64,000 bases of DNA from Clostridium sp. Cult1 (GTDB lineage: Bacteria; Bacillota; Clostridia; Tissierellales; Tepidimicrobiaceae). Shown one piece after another: positions 6,255-63,995 of this stretch. The stretch covers positions 517,402 to 581,401 of the forward strand of contig NZ_PPXW01000001.1 in the NCBI RefSeq assembly GCF_021655095.1, written 5' to 3'. Position numbers and translations under genes: made by a program. Numbering within the stretch: position 1 is the stretch's first letter; every line of letters begins with the position of its first letter. The notes under the pieces were generated by a model, which was not told the origin of the DNA, did no database searches, and was given only the letters and a program-made list of their open reading frames with translations.

Positions 6255-6391
6255 TATAAATTACCCCTTTCTAAAGTGTTATAATCATGATACCCTAAAA
6301 TACAATATCTAAAAAGGATCCTATATTATAAAAGAATTTTACTTGACTTTTCTATCTAAATATCATACAATTATTTCAATTAAGTTAAATT

Positions 6392-6668
6392 CAATGCGTA
6401 GAAATAGTAACTAAATGGACGTGGTTTTAGCGAGTCGGAGTTGGTGGAAGCCCGATACCATAATTTTAGTGAATGGATCTACAAGGAGTTTGGCGAAATG
6501 GTAAAAATTAGAGTAGTCAATACCGGGGATTTCCCGTTATAGGAATAGGATATATAGCTTTATGCTAGGTATCTGTAGAAGCGAGATTATCCAATAGATA
6601 GTCTAATTAAGGTGGCACCGCGAAAGCAGTCTTTCGTCCTTTTATGGGATGGAAGGCTTTTTTTATTG
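6392..6668 (+). promoter_or_regulatory. T-box riboswitch, tryptophan-specific
   Basis: This leader senses uncharged tRNA. The T-box core AAGGTGGCACCGCG is at 6609-6622, followed by a G+C-containing hairpin and a T-run (about 6627-6668) forming the terminator. In Stem I the expected GAA-codon-A pattern reads GAA-TGG-A with the specifier TGG (Trp) at 6474-6476. The GGTGG of the T-box can compete with the terminator, so uncharged tRNA-Trp should allow read-through. The gene downstream is a tryptophan-transporter-type protein, in agreement with the specifier. Confidence 0.93.
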
Positions 6669-23879: not shown

Positions 23880-24097
23880 AAAAAGGGCATCTTCTCCTAA
23901 AAGGACGAGAAGACACCCGTGGTACCACCTTAATTTGCATAAAGCCTCTAATCACGTAACGTGTGATAATCGCAATAGTTTCCTATTGAAACTTTGGATT
24001 CGTAATTCACTCTATTATTAGGTTATAGATCTCTCACCAATGATCTATTCTCTGTATTTTAACCATAATAGGCTACTATTATCCGTCATCGTTTTAT
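23880..24097 (-). promoter_or_regulatory. T-box riboswitch, tyrosine-specific
   Basis: On the minus strand the core AAGGTGGTACCACG is at about 23918-23931. It is followed by a terminator stem (23885-23897 with 23903-23918) and T-run in front of tyrS. Stem I carries GTGAATTACGAA, where TAC (complement of 24002-24004), a Tyr codon, sits at the specifier position. Specifier and downstream gene agree. Confidence 0.93.
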
Positions 24098-24164
24098 ATT
24101 GATTTTAAATGTATATTAATATATAAACCACTTATTGTCAAGGGGAAAAGAAAAAGAGGACTTA

Positions 24165-57804: not shown

Positions 57805-57829
57805 AGGATTTTTTGAATAGATGTAGAAT
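57805..57829 (+). promoter_or_regulatory. Sigma-H-like promoter with no ORF behind it
   Basis: AGGATTTTTT (from 57805) and GAAT (57826-57829), 21 nt start to start. Downstream there is no open reading frame with a ribosome site before a terminator at 57959-58001, so it most likely drives the small RNA described next. Confidence 0.68.
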
Positions 57830-57835
57830 ACAATA

Positions 57836-58001
57836 TAAAAGCTGAATATTTAGATGATTCGCAATCTATCAAAAAAACCTATAATTCAAAAAATAGTCGT
57901 CTAAGTACTGCTTTATTTGTGGCAATAAGGCTGACCCCAAATTGCTTAGCAAATAGAACCCAGTATTAATGATTTTCTGTTGTCATTAATACTGGGTTTT
58001 T
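57836..58001 (+). ncRNA. Candidate sigma-H-driven small RNA, copy A of a repeated element
   Basis: The predicted transcript (about 165 nt) runs from the sigma-H-like promoter to a terminator with a perfect 14-bp stem (57959-57972 with 57983-57996) and a T-run. The core at 57906-57972 aligns without gaps to 62084-62150, 54 of 67 positions by my count; the first 24 nt match at 23 positions. A hairpin is predicted in the most conserved part, CTTTATT-TGTGGC-AATAAG (one bulge), with loop TGTGGC. No coding potential was seen. I cannot name an RNA family. The 5' end is inferred from the promoter only. Confidence 0.6.
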
Positions 58002-58089
58002 ATATTTTAACTGGAAAGGAGAGTGAGTAAAAATATAAAATTGTATATTTAAAGTACAAAATAATGTGGGTAAAAAGGAGTGATATTTA

Positions 58090-59391
58090 GTGAAAAAAAG
58101 AAAGCTTAAATTATTTCACAAAATTTTTATTGGCTTATTCTTGGGGATTGTTTTAGGAGCTATTTTAAGCGCAATAGGAAAAGACCAACCTTTTGTTGTC
58201 AAACTATTACCTTGGCTTGGATTACTTGGAGACATATTTTTAAGACTTATCAGAATGGTAGTAGTTCCATTAGTGCTTTTTTCAATAACTAGTGGGGTAT
58301 CAAATCTTACTGAAATTAAAAAACTTAGAAGTATTGGAACTAAGACAGTAATATTTTTTTTCTTAACGGGTTTTCTTTCTATAGGAACTGGTCTTATAAT
58401 GGCAAATATATTTAAACCTGGTGCAGGATTAAATATTGCAGAACTGGGAGCGGGAACTGTAGAAATGAGAGAACTCCCAACGGTATTTGAATCCATATTA
58501 GGACTATTTCCAGCCAATATATTTGAGTCTTTAGCTCAAGGAGAAATGCTACACATTATTTCCTTTGGTATATTCATAGGAGCTGGTTTGTTATTAATGG
58601 GAGAAAGAGCCAAACCTATTGTGGATTTAGTAGATAGATGTTCTGAAATGATGTATAAGGTTGTTGATATTGTAATACAATTTACTCCCATTGGAGTATT
58701 TGGATTGATGGCACAAGCTGTAACGACATTTGGTGTAGGGATATTTGGGCCTGTATTTAAATTTATTTTGGTGGATTATGGAGCAAATATATTTAATATA
58801 GCAGTATGGTATTCATTGATATTGTTCTTCATAGCAAGAGTAAACCCACTAAAATTCTATAAAAAGTCTTTTCAACCTTGGGCTATAGCATTTAGCACTT
58901 GTAGTAGTGCAGCAGCTCTTCCAGTAACTATGAAAGTAGGGACTAATGAATTAGGTATCCCTAAGGAGACGGCCAGTTTTATACTACCTCTTGGGGCAAC
59001 TGCTAATATGAATGGAACTGGAATTTATTTTGGAATTGTAGTAATGTTTGCAGCTCAACTTTACGGCATACCGATTTCTATTGGGCAACAGGTAATGCTA
59101 GTCTTAACTGCTACAATGTTGTCTATAGGATGTGCAGCAGCACCTCAGACAGGACTAATTATATCTATAGCACTTTTAACAGGATTAGGAATTCCATTAG
59201 ATGGTATAGCTTTAATAGCTGGAGTATATAGAATAGTCGATCAAATCCATACTTCTACCAATGCTTTAGGAGATTTAATGGTTGGAACTGCAGTATCAGC
59301 TTTAGAGGGAGATTTGGATAGGGAAGTATTTAATCATGGGGGAATGTTCGCTACTAATAATATTTCAAATGGATTAAAGGAAAACGTTTAA
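58090..59391 (+). CDS. Dicarboxylate/amino acid:cation symporter (DAACS family)
   Basis: This 433-residue membrane protein resembles GltP/GltT/DctA-type Na+ or H+ symporters. Hallmarks are the N-terminal IFIGLFLGIVLGAILSAIG and LIRMVVVPLVLFSITSGVSNL, the re-entrant hairpin 1 motif FSTCSSAAALPVTMK (usual serine-rich FSTSSSAATLP), the NMNGT sodium-binding motif in GATANMNGTGIYFGIV, and hairpin 2 CAAAPQTGLIISIALL. The start is GTG with AAAGGAG. It is first in a cluster with an aminotransferase and a beta-keto acid cleavage enzyme. It therefore probably imports the amino acid or acid that these enzymes degrade rather than, or in addition to, glutamate. Confidence 0.92.
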   Translation: MKKRKLKLFHKIFIGLFLGIVLGAILSAIGKDQPFVVKLLPWLGLLGDIFLRLIRMVVVPLVLFSITSGVSNLTEIKKLRSIGTKTVIFFFLTGFLSIGTGLIMANIFKPGAGLNIAELGAGTVEMRELPTVFESILGLFPANIFESLAQGEMLHIISFGIFIGAGLLLMGERAKPIVDLVDRCSEMMYKVVDIVIQFTPIGVFGLMAQAVTTFGVGIFGPVFKFILVDYGANIFNIAVWYSLILFFIARVNPLKFYKKSFQPWAIAFSTCSSAAALPVTMKVGTNELGIPKETASFILPLGATANMNGTGIYFGIVVMFAAQLYGIPISIGQQVMLVLTATMLSIGCAAAPQTGLIISIALLTGLGIPLDGIALIAGVYRIVDQIHTSTNALGDLMVGTAVSALEGDLDREVFNHGGMFATNNISNGLKENV

Positions 59392-59419
59392 CAACAAAAC
59401 ATTAAAAGGAGGATAATTT

Positions 59420-60793
59420 ATGAGTTTAAACAAAGCTCCAAAAAATTATGTGTTTTATAGAAATCAGAATTGGCATTATCCTAGAATTGAAAAGGGAGAG
59501 GGAATCTTTTTATATGGAGAAGATGGAAAGAAATATATTGATGGTTGCTCTGGTTCTGCTGTGGCTAATATCGGCCATGGGAACAGAGAAGTGGCAGAAT
59601 TTGCAAAAGAACATATAGAAAGGATCGCTTTTACTCACCTATCTCGTTGGACAGTAGATTCTATTGAAAAATGTGCAGAAAGAATTGCTAATTGGTGTCC
59701 TGAAGGATTAAATCATGTATATTTCGTATCTGGTGGATCAGAAGCTACAGAAACAGCAATAAAAATGGCTAGACAGTATTTTGTAGAAAGGGATGGTCAT
59801 AAGACAAGTAAGTGGAAAGTTATTTCTAAATGGAATTCCTATCATGGAGCTACAATGGGTTCCTTATCAATGACTGGAAGCATTGGTAGAAGAAAAATAT
59901 ATGATCCTTTATTAGCTAACTTCCCTAAAATACAACAATTCTATCATTATAGAAACCCGTGGGGAGCAAAAACATTAGAAGAGACAAGTATATTAGCAGC
60001 CAAAGAATTAGAAAAGGAAATACTAAGGCATGGACCAGAAAATATAGCTGCATTTATTTCAGAACCAGTGATAGGGTCTGCGGCTCCAGGTGTTCATCCA
60101 GAGAAGATTTATTTTCAGCTGGTAAGAGAAATCTGTGATAAATATGATATTTTATTCATAATGGATGAGGTTATGGCAGGTACAGGTAGAACAGGTAAGA
60201 AAATGGCCTCGGAACATTTTGACGCCAAGCCAGATATTTTAGTGATTGCTAAGGGGTTAAGTAGTGGTTATACCCCAATAGGTGCAGCAGTATGTACTGA
60301 TGAAATATTTAATACCATTATGATAGATGGATCGGGTAATTTTATTCATGGTCATACTTATGCAGGAAATCCACTGTCTTGTGGAATTGCAGATAAGGTA
60401 ATGGAAATAATTGAGAGAGAAAATTATATAGAAAATTGTGTTTTACAAGGAGAATATCTACTGAAGAAACTAGAGGATTTGTACAATTATCCTATAGTAG
60501 GTGATATTAGAGGTAAAGGTCTTATGATAGGAATTGAATTCGTTAAGGACCAAGGAACTAAGGAGCCATTTGAAGTATCAGAGAATGTTAAAGGAAAGAT
60601 AACCAACAATGGATTAGTAGAAGGATTAGTAGTATACCCAGGTGGAGGATCTGTTGATGGGGTTAGAGGAGATCATATATTATTGGCACCTCCAATTAAT
60701 ATTACTAAAGAAGAAGTAGATTTGTTATATGATAAATTAGACAAATCCATTAACAAGACTACTTCTGAAGTATTAGGACAAAAAGCATATTAA
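59420..60793 (+). CDS. Class III (PLP) aminotransferase
   Basis: This 457-residue enzyme of the omega-amino-acid/diaminopelargonate aminotransferase group has the cofactor-binding regions VYFVSGGSEATETAIKMAR, WNSYHGATMGSLSMTG, FIMDEVMAGTGRTGK and VIAKGLSSGYTPIGA, where the Lys forms the Schiff base. The N-terminal KGEGIFLYGEDGKKYIDGCSGSAVANIGHG is the family start. AAGGAGG precedes the ATG. It lies 28 bp after the symporter and ends 12 bp before the cleavage-enzyme gene, so the three are co-transcribed. The likely role is to remove the amino group from a beta- or omega-amino acid, giving the keto acid for the next enzyme. The exact substrate is not decidable from sequence. Confidence 0.92.
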   Translation: MSLNKAPKNYVFYRNQNWHYPRIEKGEGIFLYGEDGKKYIDGCSGSAVANIGHGNREVAEFAKEHIERIAFTHLSRWTVDSIEKCAERIANWCPEGLNHVYFVSGGSEATETAIKMARQYFVERDGHKTSKWKVISKWNSYHGATMGSLSMTGSIGRRKIYDPLLANFPKIQQFYHYRNPWGAKTLEETSILAAKELEKEILRHGPENIAAFISEPVIGSAAPGVHPEKIYFQLVREICDKYDILFIMDEVMAGTGRTGKKMASEHFDAKPDILVIAKGLSSGYTPIGAAVCTDEIFNTIMIDGSGNFIHGHTYAGNPLSCGIADKVMEIIERENYIENCVLQGEYLLKKLEDLYNYPIVGDIRGKGLMIGIEFVKDQGTKEPFEVSENVKGKITNNGLVEGLVVYPGGGSVDGVRGDHILLAPPINITKEEVDLLYDKLDKSINKTTSEVLGQKAY

Positions 60794-60805
60794 GGAGGCA
60801 TGACT

Positions 60806-61633
60806 ATGAATTATAGAAAGGAAAAGTTGATAATTACCGTAGCTCTTACGGGAAATGTTCCTACAAAAGAAATGAACCCACATACTCCTATTACTGTAGA
60901 AGAAATTGTAGATGATATTATAAAATGTAAAGAGATTGGCGCATCGGTAGCTCATATTCATGTAAGAGACAAAGAAGGGAATCCAACTTGTGATAGAGAA
61001 CTATATAAAGAGGTCTTAGATGAATTAGAAAAAAGGAGTTGTGACATTATAACTCAACTGTCTACAGGAGCTAGGGGTGGAGGAAATACTTCTGAATGGC
61101 GAGGCCAAATGTTGGATTTAAATACTGAGATGGCTAGTTTATCTACAGGTTCCTCTAACTTTGCAACTCAAGTAAATGCAAACTCTTTTGAATTAATTGA
61201 AGAACTAGCAAATAAAATGTATTCAAATAATATAAAACCAGAAATAGAAGCCTTTGATTTAGGAATGATTGATAATGCTAAGTATCTAATTAAAAAAGGT
61301 GTATTAAAACCTCCTCTACAATTTAATCTTGTAATGAATGTTAGGGGTTCAGTATCCGGTACTCCTAGGAACTTGTTGCATATGGTAGAATCCTTACCAG
61401 AAGGTTCCACCTTTACAGTTTCAGGGATAGGACCAAGCCAAGTACCAATGTTGACTATGTCTATTCTATTAGGAGGACATACAAGAACCGGACTAGAGGA
61501 TACGATTCTTTATGATAAAGGTATCTTAGCTACTAATCCAATGTTAGTAGAAAGAGTAGTTAGAATTGCCAAGGAACTAGGGAGAGAAGTAGCTATTCCA
61601 AATGAAGCTAGAATGATATTAGGTCTCAAATAA
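60806..61633 (+). CDS. kce: Beta-keto acid cleavage enzyme (Kce/BKACE, DUF849)
   Basis: This 275-residue Zn-dependent enzyme is homologous to 3-keto-5-aminohexanoate cleavage enzyme of lysine fermentation. It condenses a beta-keto acid with acetyl-CoA and splits it into acetoacetate plus a CoA ester. The Zn-binding pair H50/H52 is in VAHIHVRDKEG. The N-terminal IITVALTGNVPTKEMNPHTPITVEEI, TQLSTGARGG and FTVSGIGPSQVPML segments are family landmarks. The start at 60806 is preferred because AGGAGG lies 7 nt before it; the ATG at 60800 is only 1 nt away. kamA, kamDE, kdd and kal are absent, so the substrate may differ from that of lysine fermentation. Confidence 0.92.
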   Translation: MNYRKEKLIITVALTGNVPTKEMNPHTPITVEEIVDDIIKCKEIGASVAHIHVRDKEGNPTCDRELYKEVLDELEKRSCDIITQLSTGARGGGNTSEWRGQMLDLNTEMASLSTGSSNFATQVNANSFELIEELANKMYSNNIKPEIEAFDLGMIDNAKYLIKKGVLKPPLQFNLVMNVRGSVSGTPRNLLHMVESLPEGSTFTVSGIGPSQVPMLTMSILLGGHTRTGLEDTILYDKGILATNPMLVERVVRIAKELGREVAIPNEARMILGLK

Positions 61634-61638
61634 GTAAT

Positions 61639-61674
61639 AGAAAAGGCTGCTATAAATAGTGCAGCCTTTTCTAA
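61639..61674 (+). terminator. Terminator of the symporter-aminotransferase-kce operon
   Basis: Perfect 12-bp stem AGAAAAGGCTGC/GCAGCCTTTTCT with a 10-nt loop. The T-run is inside the stem end. Confidence 0.75.
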
Positions 61675-61683
61675 AATTAATAA

Positions 61684-61708
61684 AGGATTTATTAAGGAAA
61701 TATAGAAT
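61684..61708 (+). promoter_or_regulatory. Sigma-H-like promoter of the DUF3870 gene
   Basis: AGGATTTATT (from 61684) and GAAT (61705-61708), 21 nt start to start, 25 bp before the start codon. Confidence 0.62.
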
Positions 61709-61732
61709 GTACCTTATAAAGGAGGAGGAAAA

Positions 61733-62083
61733 ATGAGGGAGATCCAAGATTTTGGTGAGGATACTGTATACTTTGTTTCCTATGCTAAGCTTCCATCGGA
61801 TATAGCTGCTACCTATGTGCATAAGGTAGTTGGAGTTGGGTTCTTAATCAATACTAAAACAGGGATAATAGAAGATGTAATGGTAACTTTAATATCTGAT
61901 TTAGTTAAAGATTTTTTATCTTACCTTATCATAGGTCATAATATTGACAAGGATGGCATAGACGGTATAATAGAGAAAATAGAAGCTAGGTTTTTTGGAT
62001 ATTCACAGAAGGCTATAATTGTAGCTACCAAAGGAGTATATAGGAGATATTTAAAATGGAAAGAAGAAAACCATAAATACTAA
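61733..62083 (+). CDS. DUF3870 domain protein
   Basis: This 116-residue soluble protein consists almost entirely of a DUF3870 domain: YFVSYAKLPSDIAATYVHKVVGVGFLINTKTGIIEDVMVTLISDLVKDFL, then GYSQKAIIVATKGVYRRYLKW. The function is unknown. In anaerobes the domain is found near amino-acid catabolism genes, which fits its position between the cleavage enzyme and methylmalonyl-CoA mutase. AAAGGAGG precedes the ATG. It has its own sigma-H-like promoter rather than being part of the upstream operon. The small-RNA-like element copy B begins at the base after its stop codon, so they share a transcript. Confidence 0.85.
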   Translation: MREIQDFGEDTVYFVSYAKLPSDIAATYVHKVVGVGFLINTKTGIIEDVMVTLISDLVKDFLSYLIIGHNIDKDGIDGIIEKIEARFFGYSQKAIIVATKGVYRRYLKWKEENHKY

Positions 62084-62178
62084 TACTGTTTTATTTGTGG
62101 CAATAAGATTAAACTCAAGTTGCATATCAAATAAAGTCCAGTACTAATGACTAGGGTAGCCATTAGTACTCTTTTTTT
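62084..62178 (+). ncRNA. Candidate small RNA / structured 3' UTR, copy B of the repeated element
   Basis: This element begins at the first base after the DUF3870 stop codon and ends in a terminator (stem AGTACTAATG/CATTAGTACT, 62140-62149 with 62161-62170, then T-run). It aligns without gaps with copy A over 67 nt (54 identities). Two base changes preserve pairing: C-G to T-G in the TGTGGC-loop hairpin, and T-A to C-G in the terminator stem. It could be a 3' UTR-derived small RNA released from the DUF3870 mRNA. Confidence 0.55.
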
Positions 62179-62241
62179 GTAGATTTTGCAATATTTATTT
62201 CATTTTCGAAAAATGTTGAAATATATGTTGCAAAATCTACA
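62178..62241. repeat. Long inverted repeat upstream of the mutase gene
   Basis: TGTAGATTTTGCAA (62178-62191) and TTGCAAAATCTACA (62228-62241) form a perfect 14-bp inverted repeat, extended inward by about 8 of 10 more pairs. The right arm contains the -35 hexamer of the next promoter, so this may be an operator. Confidence 0.55.
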
Positions 62242-62257
62242 AGATTATTACTATAAT
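62228..62257 (+). promoter_or_regulatory. Sigma-A-like promoter of the mutase gene
   Basis: TTGCAA (62228-62233), 18 bp, TATAAT (62252-62257), about 59 bp upstream of the start codon and overlapping the inverted repeat. Confidence 0.65.
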
Positions 62258-62315: not shown

Positions 62316-63995
62316 ATGTTTAATGAGAAAAAATTAGAGGAAATTAAAGAAGCTGAAAAGAAATGGACAGAAGAAAAGGTGCAAAAAGCTATTAGTAGAT
62401 TTCCTGAAAGGAAAGAAAAATTTACAACCGGATCTAATCTAGAAGTTGATAGACTATATACACCAGAAGATGTAAGGGAAATAGATTATAAAGAAAAATT
62501 AGGTTTTCCAGGAGAGTATCCCTTTACAAGAGGAGTCCAACCTACTATGTATAGAGGCAGACTTTGGACTATGAGACAATATGCAGGATTTGCTACTGCA
62601 GAAGAATCTAATAAAAGATATAAATACCTATTGGAACAAGGTCAAACAGGTTTATCCGTTGCCTTTGATTTACCAACCCAGATTGGATATGATTCCGATC
62701 ATGGATTATCTGAAGGAGAAGTAGGAAAAGTAGGAGTTGCCATAGACTCGTTAAAGGATATGGAAATATTATTTGATGGAATACCTTTGGATAAGGTGAG
62801 TACTTCCATGACTATTAATGCACCGGCAAGCGTTTTATTAGCTATGTATATTGCTGTTGCAGAAAAACAAGGAGTATCTAAGGATAAATTAAGAGGTACT
62901 ATCCAAAACGATATACTCAAAGAATACATAGCAAGAGGAACCTATATATTTCCACCGGAACCATCCATGAGATTAATAACCAATATATTTGAATATTGTT
63001 CAAAGGAAGTACCTAAATGGAACACCATAAGTATTAGTGGTTATCATATAAGGGAAGCTGGTTCCACGGCAGCCCAAGAAGTAGCCTTTACATTAGCTGA
63101 TGGAATAGCTTATGTAGATGCTGCCATTAATGCAGGGTTAGATGTAGATGATTTTGCTCCGAGATTATCCTTCTTCTTTAATGCTCATAATGATTTATTA
63201 GAAGAAGTAGCAAAATATAGGGCAGCAAGAAGGCTATGGGCAAAGATAATGAAAGAAAGATTTGGAGCAAAGAAAGAAAAATCCATGATGCTAAAATTCC
63301 ATACTCAAACAGCTGGTTCTACATTAACAGCACAACAGCCAGATAACAATATAATAAGAGTAACGATTCAAACCTTAGCAGCAGTACTTGGAGGAACCCA
63401 ATCATTGCACACTAACTCTAGGGACGAAGCATTAGCATTACCTACAGAGGAATCAGTACGCATTGCTTTAAGAACACAGCAAATAGTAGCCCATGAATCT
63501 GGAGTAACGGAAACTATAGATCCATTAGCTGGTTCTTATTATGTAGAAAACCTTACAAATAGAATAGAAGAAGAAGCCATGAACTATATTAAAAGAATTG
63601 ATGAATTAGGAGGAGCACCAAAAGCTATAGAAAAAGGATATATTCAAAAAGAAATTCAAAATTCAGCTTACAATTATCAAATGGAAATAGAATCAGAAGA
63701 AAGAATAGTAGTAGGAGTAAATAAATTCCAAATAGAAGAAGAACATCATAAAGACATATTAAAGGTAGATCCGGAAGTGGAAAGATTACAAAGAGAAAAA
63801 TTGAAAACATTAAAAGAAGAAAGAAATAATGAAGAAGTAGAGAATAGATTAAAAGAATTAAAGAATGCAGCTAATACTTCAGAAAACTTAATGCCTTATA
63901 TACTAGAAGCAGTAAAATCATATGCTACATTAGGTGAAATATGTGGAGTGTTAAGGGAAGTATTTGGTGAATATCAACAATCAGTAATACTTTAA
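62316..63995 (+). CDS. mcmA: Methylmalonyl-CoA mutase, catalytic (large) subunit without B12 domain
   Basis: This 559-residue subunit of an adenosylcobalamin-dependent acyl-CoA mutase carries out the radical carbon-skeleton rearrangement. The TIM-barrel motifs are [45 protein letters not shown] and [20 protein letters not shown], plus [36 protein letters not shown]79 (PTMYRGR) and R207 (ARGTYIF) correspond to the residues that bind the substrate carboxylate in true methylmalonyl-CoA mutases; isobutyryl-CoA mutases have Phe and Gln there, as I recall. The protein ends before the cobalamin-binding domain, which in this two-gene type is encoded separately, presumably just beyond the window. AAGGAGG precedes the ATG. 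The cofactor could be made by the adenosyltransferase at 25889. Confidence 0.95.

Follow-up and report, generated by a model that had tools for sequence, protein, structure and literature searches.

The hut operons are antiterminated by HutP, a small stand-alone protein that is tuned by an amino acid and recognizes UAG-type repeats in its control of catabolic genes. Two further classes of protein-controlled leaders, the RAT leaders and the ANTAR leaders, carry an antiterminator hairpin that excludes a terminator (PMC3369936). The leader described here was found in a 64,000-nucleotide stretch of the genome of Clostridium sp. Cult1, a near relative of [Clostridium] ultunense and Schnuerera (contig NZ_PPXW01000001.1, positions 517,402 to 581,401 of the forward strand; hereafter the window, in which positions are counted from its first letter and features lie on the + strand unless marked otherwise). 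It occurs there twice, once ahead of a transporter gene (copy A) and once directly behind a gene for a protein of the DUF3870 family (PF12986; copy B), and computational comparison reveals a family of structured RNAs that overlap an intrinsic terminator, precede catabolic genes and are linked to DUF3870. We file this leader with the protein-controlled antitermination leaders, with DUF3870 as the protein proposed to act on it.

The two copies (57906-57972 and 62084-62150) are identical at 54 of 67 positions, including 23 of the first 24, and the best other ungapped match to copy A in the window, on either strand, reaches 35 of 67. The first two figures reproduce those of a preliminary description of this DNA, which was also right in stating that each copy passes straight into its own intrinsic terminator, that the terminator stems differ by a T-A to C-G change and that copy B follows the DUF3870 stop (62083) with no base in between. 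In folding predictions the RNA common to both is a 60-nucleotide hairpin (57906-57965 and 62084-62143) composed of P1 (UACUG/CAGUA), an internal loop, P2 (strands UUUAUUUG.../...CAAAUAAA) and P3. More specifically, copy A pairs 57906-57910 with 57961-57965 (P1), 57912-57920 with 57949-57957 (P2) and 57921-57926 with 57941-57946 (P3), and its internal loop has one nucleotide against three; the loop of copy B is slightly different.

The 3' strand of P1 lies inside the 5' arm of terminator A (57955-58003) and of terminator B (62140-62178, with a T tract), and it doubles as part of the terminator arm in 83 of 84 copies, compared with 53 of 1500 random positions (3.5%) under the same energy limit. 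Because one strand serves both structures, the element constitutes an antiterminator/terminator switch. Folding of the growing transcript predicts that P1 forms first and that from about 85-90 nucleotides the terminator captures P1, while most of P2 and P3 stay; the terminator fold is favored over the best P1-constrained fold by 13.7 kcal/mol in copy A and by 2.5 kcal/mol in copy B. The sole copy that lacks the overlap, in Anaerosalibacter bizertensis (L034), has transposase-like genes directly downstream of the hairpin, and an insertion at that point is therefore likely. The operon concerned (L034 from 5010, and L115) is decaying and encodes an N-terminally truncated DUF3870. Every element does end in a terminator, as would be the case for ordinary, unregulated constitutive terminators that happen to have a hairpin upstream; this explanation is the least credible of those considered, since it is opposed by the systematic P1 overlap across many families as well as by the covariation and the sequence-invariant core described below.

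DUF3870, as proposed here, would resemble HutP in being a small stand-alone antiterminator of catabolic operons, but the DUF3870 protein of the window matches PF12986 only in a Pfam scan, with no match to CAT, PRD, ANTAR or HutP, and the UAG-type repeats that HutP targets are unlike the present hairpin. With the RAT leaders of the CAT-domain proteins BglG, LicT and SacY the likeness is in anatomy and targets, namely an antiterminator hairpin with asymmetric internal loops that excludes an intrinsic terminator in catabolic operons (PMC3369936 and general knowledge), and the gene order hairpin - DUF3870 - hairpin - symporter of one locus (L124/G048) recalls bglG, which is flanked by RAT sites. 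The RNA core, however, is another one, as the Rfam family bglG-cis-reg (RF03530) scores 33.1 bits against a cut-off of 80 (30.6 in L048), and the CAT and PRD domains of BglG and LicT find no match in the window's DUF3870. The ANTAR leaders of AmiR, NasR and EutV similarly employ a protein-stabilized hairpin whose distal strand overlaps the terminator of catabolic genes, and they consist of a pair of small hairpins whose loops carry residues A1 and G4 (PMC3369936), whereas here there is one long hairpin with a variable apex, no A1/G4 double loop and a protein without an ANTAR domain. A known Rfam family, an ANTAR leader, and a HutP or CAT protein were thus each dropped, on the Rfam cut-offs, the missing double loop and the Pfam scan, respectively. 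The preliminary description had likewise matched the RNA to no named family; no Rfam 15 family reaches its gathering score over the element in the window and the 23 related loci scanned, and a literature search for an earlier description of such a motif found nothing. An Rfam Clostridiales-2 RNA does lie upstream in the DUF3870 locus of Geosporobacter ferrireducens (L112, 2640-2722).

The elements belong to a genuine family of structured RNAs, which shows covariation and has homologs in related genomes. A covariance model built from 15 sequences recovers 41 copies, spread over 26 of the 249 genomes of the order, and broader models add copies in the class and in the phylum (Bacillota); these genome-wide scans used strict filters and miss many copies recovered by local search. 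Low-scoring matches that fall within open reading frames, namely those of G375, G714, G900 and G914, the second match of G709, and L037:6928, were disregarded. Two-sided changes occur at 7 of 22 pairs of the long hairpin in a MAFFT alignment of the 15 sequences, at 11 of 20 pairs among 36 distinct sequences (score 0.285 versus 0.168 in shuffles) and at 16 of 20 among 73 distinct sequences (0.348 versus 0.207, with slid controls at or below 0.10). The latter two alignments lean towards the model because they were fitted to it, unlike the first, and the 74 rows behind the largest include L037:6928, which probably matched by chance. Conservation of the sequence is highest where the antiterminator and terminator hairpins compete, in a core of RCUGCUUU...URAAAYCCAGY, and the conserved segments are located in P1/P2 and in the internal loop of P1; P3 and the apex are free to vary, and in some Bacillaceae the elements measure only 33-43 nucleotides in total. 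The preliminary description had instead proposed a short hairpin with a TGTGGC loop as the conserved contact. That hairpin is a local pairing with no two-sided changes in 15 homologs and with its outer pair broken in 6; the structure that has been conserved is the long hairpin of P1, P2 and P3.

Downstream of the hairpin, the first gene in most cases encodes a class III aminotransferase, a DUF819 transporter, an enolase-superfamily (dipeptide-epimerase-like) enzyme, a sodium:dicarboxylate symporter, an M20 peptidase, methylmalonyl-CoA mutase, a D-aminopeptidase or a beta-lactamase-like hydrolase. These genes constitute a catabolic regulon through which amino acids, dipeptides and acyl-CoA intermediates are taken up and degraded. 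In the window, copy A lies between ftsH and a gene of the sodium:dicarboxylate/glutamate symporter family (SDF; 58090-59391), which appears to be the first gene of an operon that also contains a class III aminotransferase gene (59420-60793) and a beta-keto acid cleavage enzyme (BKACE) gene (60800-61633); copy B is preceded by the DUF3870 gene (61733-62083) and followed by the gene for the large subunit of methylmalonyl-CoA mutase (62316-63995). This placement before catabolic and transport genes, together with the P1/terminator overlap, marks a cis-acting antiterminator/terminator leader.

The preliminary description had regarded the pair as a small-RNA family expressed when sporulation or stationary phase begins. 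The structured RNA family stands, and the small-RNA reading was rejected as the principal one because P1 overlaps the terminator and the copies sit in leaders. Terminated leader transcripts of about 100-190 nucleotides would exist, and the sigma-H-like promoters suggested ahead of both copies are plausible. Boxes with the pattern AGGATTT-N-TAGAAT precede copy A (AGGATTTTTTGAATAGATGTAGAAT, 57805-57829) and DUF3870 (AGGATTTATTAAGGAAATATAGAAT, 61684-61708) and are also found at the corresponding place in several relatives of the same family, some of which have them only in degenerate form (background of the pattern, 0.11 per 260 nucleotides). The link to sporulation is not general, however, because three Tissierella relatives (G239, G241 and G244) lack these boxes and show, by eye, sigma-A-like -10 sequences. 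Sporulation control may exist in this bacterial family and is no property of the RNA itself. The differing promoter types, the nearly universal P1/terminator overlap, the association with downstream catabolic operons and DUF3870, and the location of the conserved segments in P1/P2 and the internal loop rather than in an exposed apex, with the proposed contact loop not kept as a hairpin, leave a trans-acting small RNA very improbable.

The distribution of DUF3870 is revealing of a close relationship with the hairpin. DUF3870 is present in 67 of the 249 genomes of the order and in 25 of the 26 that contain the hairpin (P=2.4e-15). Among the 41 copies in the order, 15 are at most 40 nucleotides downstream of a DUF3870 match and 16 others share its strand at a distance of up to 4 kb; the remaining 10 are not close to it. 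Blind scans outside the order gave credible matches (L097, L098, L180-L184, L188) that all lie less than 7 kb from a DUF3870 gene. In reciprocal fashion, a protein-first survey of 80 DUF3870 loci from named genomes, including Bacillaceae, Sporomusa and the proteobacterium Wohlfahrtiimonas, found a same-strand hairpin next to the stop codon in 53 and a hairpin elsewhere in the locus in 5 more; the 53 of 80 is no frequency for DUF3870 at large because the loci were picked by similarity to a query that included hairpin-linked proteins. Copies distant from DUF3870 also occur in genomes that carry the gene elsewhere, before a mutase operon (G057), before an M20 peptidase gene (G204) and in G218. 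Beyond these, tandem hairpins, each with its own terminator, stand between DUF3870 and a BKACE gene in Fusibacter and in a UBA genome (L118, 4332/4642; L120, 4344/4499), and three Desulfobacteraceae loci (L146, L161, L170) have a different hairpin, CTTGTTTATTCAG...GTAAACAAGACC, after DUF3870, with GGTCTTG further on in L170; this may represent a diverged class of the switch. In the genome of Clostridium sp. Cult1 itself, a second DUF3870 gene (G000:C1:824954-825232, - strand; L081) adjoins an epimerase-like gene and has no detectable hairpin.

The stop-adjacent hairpins begin, in 49 of 53 cases, between -35 and +30 nucleotides from the DUF3870 stop (median +4), and in Geobacillus-type loci the stop codon lies inside the element. 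Such proximity is what would be expected if the translating ribosome set the switch, the end of DUF3870 translation beside P1 preventing or permitting P1 and so coupling downstream transcription. Yet no DUF3870 stop precedes copy A or the mutase leaders of G020, G031 and G057, and the copies upstream of DUF3870 (G048, G234, L180, L194, L195) follow no DUF3870 stop codon; ribosome coupling is accordingly an improbable account of the family.

Considering this linkage, DUF3870 is probably the RNA-binding partner of the leader. We infer three points, namely that DUF3870 binds the RNA, that this binding antiterminates and that a metabolite is sensed, the last being an assumption modeled on other catabolic antiterminators. 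The emerging RNA would first fold into the P1-P2-P3 hairpin; once the rest of the leader had been made, the more stable terminator would take the 3' strand of P1 and transcription would stop. DUF3870, probably tuned by a pathway metabolite, would bind the P1/internal-loop core and keep P1 closed, thereby blocking the terminator, so that polymerase would read on into the transporter, aminotransferase, BKACE and methylmalonyl-CoA mutase genes. We assign a probability of roughly 0.6 to this reading, in which DUF3870 binds the leader core and antiterminates, probably under metabolite control, to let the downstream catabolic genes be expressed. The broader proposal, that DUF3870 is an unrecognized family of metabolite-tuned RNA-binding antiterminators with its own family of leader RNAs, governing how amino acids, dipeptides and acyl-CoA intermediates are taken up and degraded in Bacillota and at least one proteobacterial genus, appears to have slightly better than even odds.

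Several observations weigh against antitermination by DUF3870. No hairpin was detected at 22 of the 80 DUF3870 loci; the similarity-based choice of these loci counts here as well. Much of the genome-level association between hairpin and DUF3870 reflects physical linkage. One hairpin genome, G200 (62% complete), has no DUF3870 found, G020 has a single DUF3870 gene, which lacks an adjacent hairpin, and the DUF3870 of Anaerosalibacter bizertensis lacks its N-terminal part, yet the mutase hairpin there (L033) is intact. The mutase gene of the window may have its own promoter after terminator B, the candidate site at 62228-62257 (TTGCAA-18-TATAAT) being sigma-A-like by consensus match only. As to the protein, it is not strongly basic, with 15 lysines and arginines versus 16 aspartates and glutamates, and its AlphaFold2 (AF2) model (mean pLDDT 89.8) gave no convincing match to an RNA-binding fold in Foldseek and VIA-align searches. 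The model weakly resembles IscU/SufU and a lipoate-ligase domain, with HutP not among the matches listed, which were weak throughout: the best Foldseek E-value was 0.066, and the best VIA-align match was IscU (Z 8.2, root-mean-square deviation 3.2, 101 aligned), a Z within the range of common arrangements and therefore not taken as evidence of function. Because its likeness to solved folds is weak, the predicted fold neither supports nor excludes RNA binding; no solved relative was found by sequence, and a literature search on DUF3870/PF12986 turned up one unrelated paper and no functional one.

The hairpin-less loci, A. bizertensis, G200 and G020 together mean that a pure riboswitch stays the main rival. 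The hairpin would then itself be a small riboswitch in which a metabolite binds the conserved core and stabilizes P1 against the terminator, with DUF3870 an accessory member of the same regulon. It would share the same switch anatomy and the same catabolic genes downstream, and it would accommodate mutase-operon hairpins in genomes whose DUF3870 is truncated, undetected or hairpin-less. Nevertheless, a core made of a short helix and one asymmetric loop, with a variable P3 and apex and whole elements of 33-43 nucleotides in Bacillaceae, offers little for a ligand pocket, and the persistence of the RNA beside DUF3870 across phyla would be left unexplained. A riboswitch thus seems doubtful, and antitermination by DUF3870 is preferred.

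Additional features of the window include a perfect sigma-A consensus (TTGACA-16-TATAAT, 61944-61971) inside the DUF3870 reading frame, and an inverted repeat, TGTAGATTTTGCAATATTT...TGCAAAATCTACA (62179-62257), between terminator B and the mutase gene, which overlaps the promoter-like site and is possibly a repressor operator. Between terminator A and the symporter gene there is no convincing promoter, although two 9-of-12 matches appear there in a scan. Two T-box leaders are found elsewhere in the window (6385-6644, and 23898-24098 on the - strand).

If antitermination by DUF3870 is correct, it would provide a function for a widespread domain of unknown function and would lengthen the short list of protein-controlled antiterminators by one protein-RNA pair, with a leader recognizable by sequence. 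Being small, the proposed two-part system would lend itself to direct in vitro work. The reading would also predict which catabolic operons share their regulation in amino-acid-fermenting Clostridia/Tissierellia and Bacillaceae, namely those for symporters, aminotransferase/BKACE, methylmalonyl-CoA mutase, dipeptide epimerases and DUF819 transporters.

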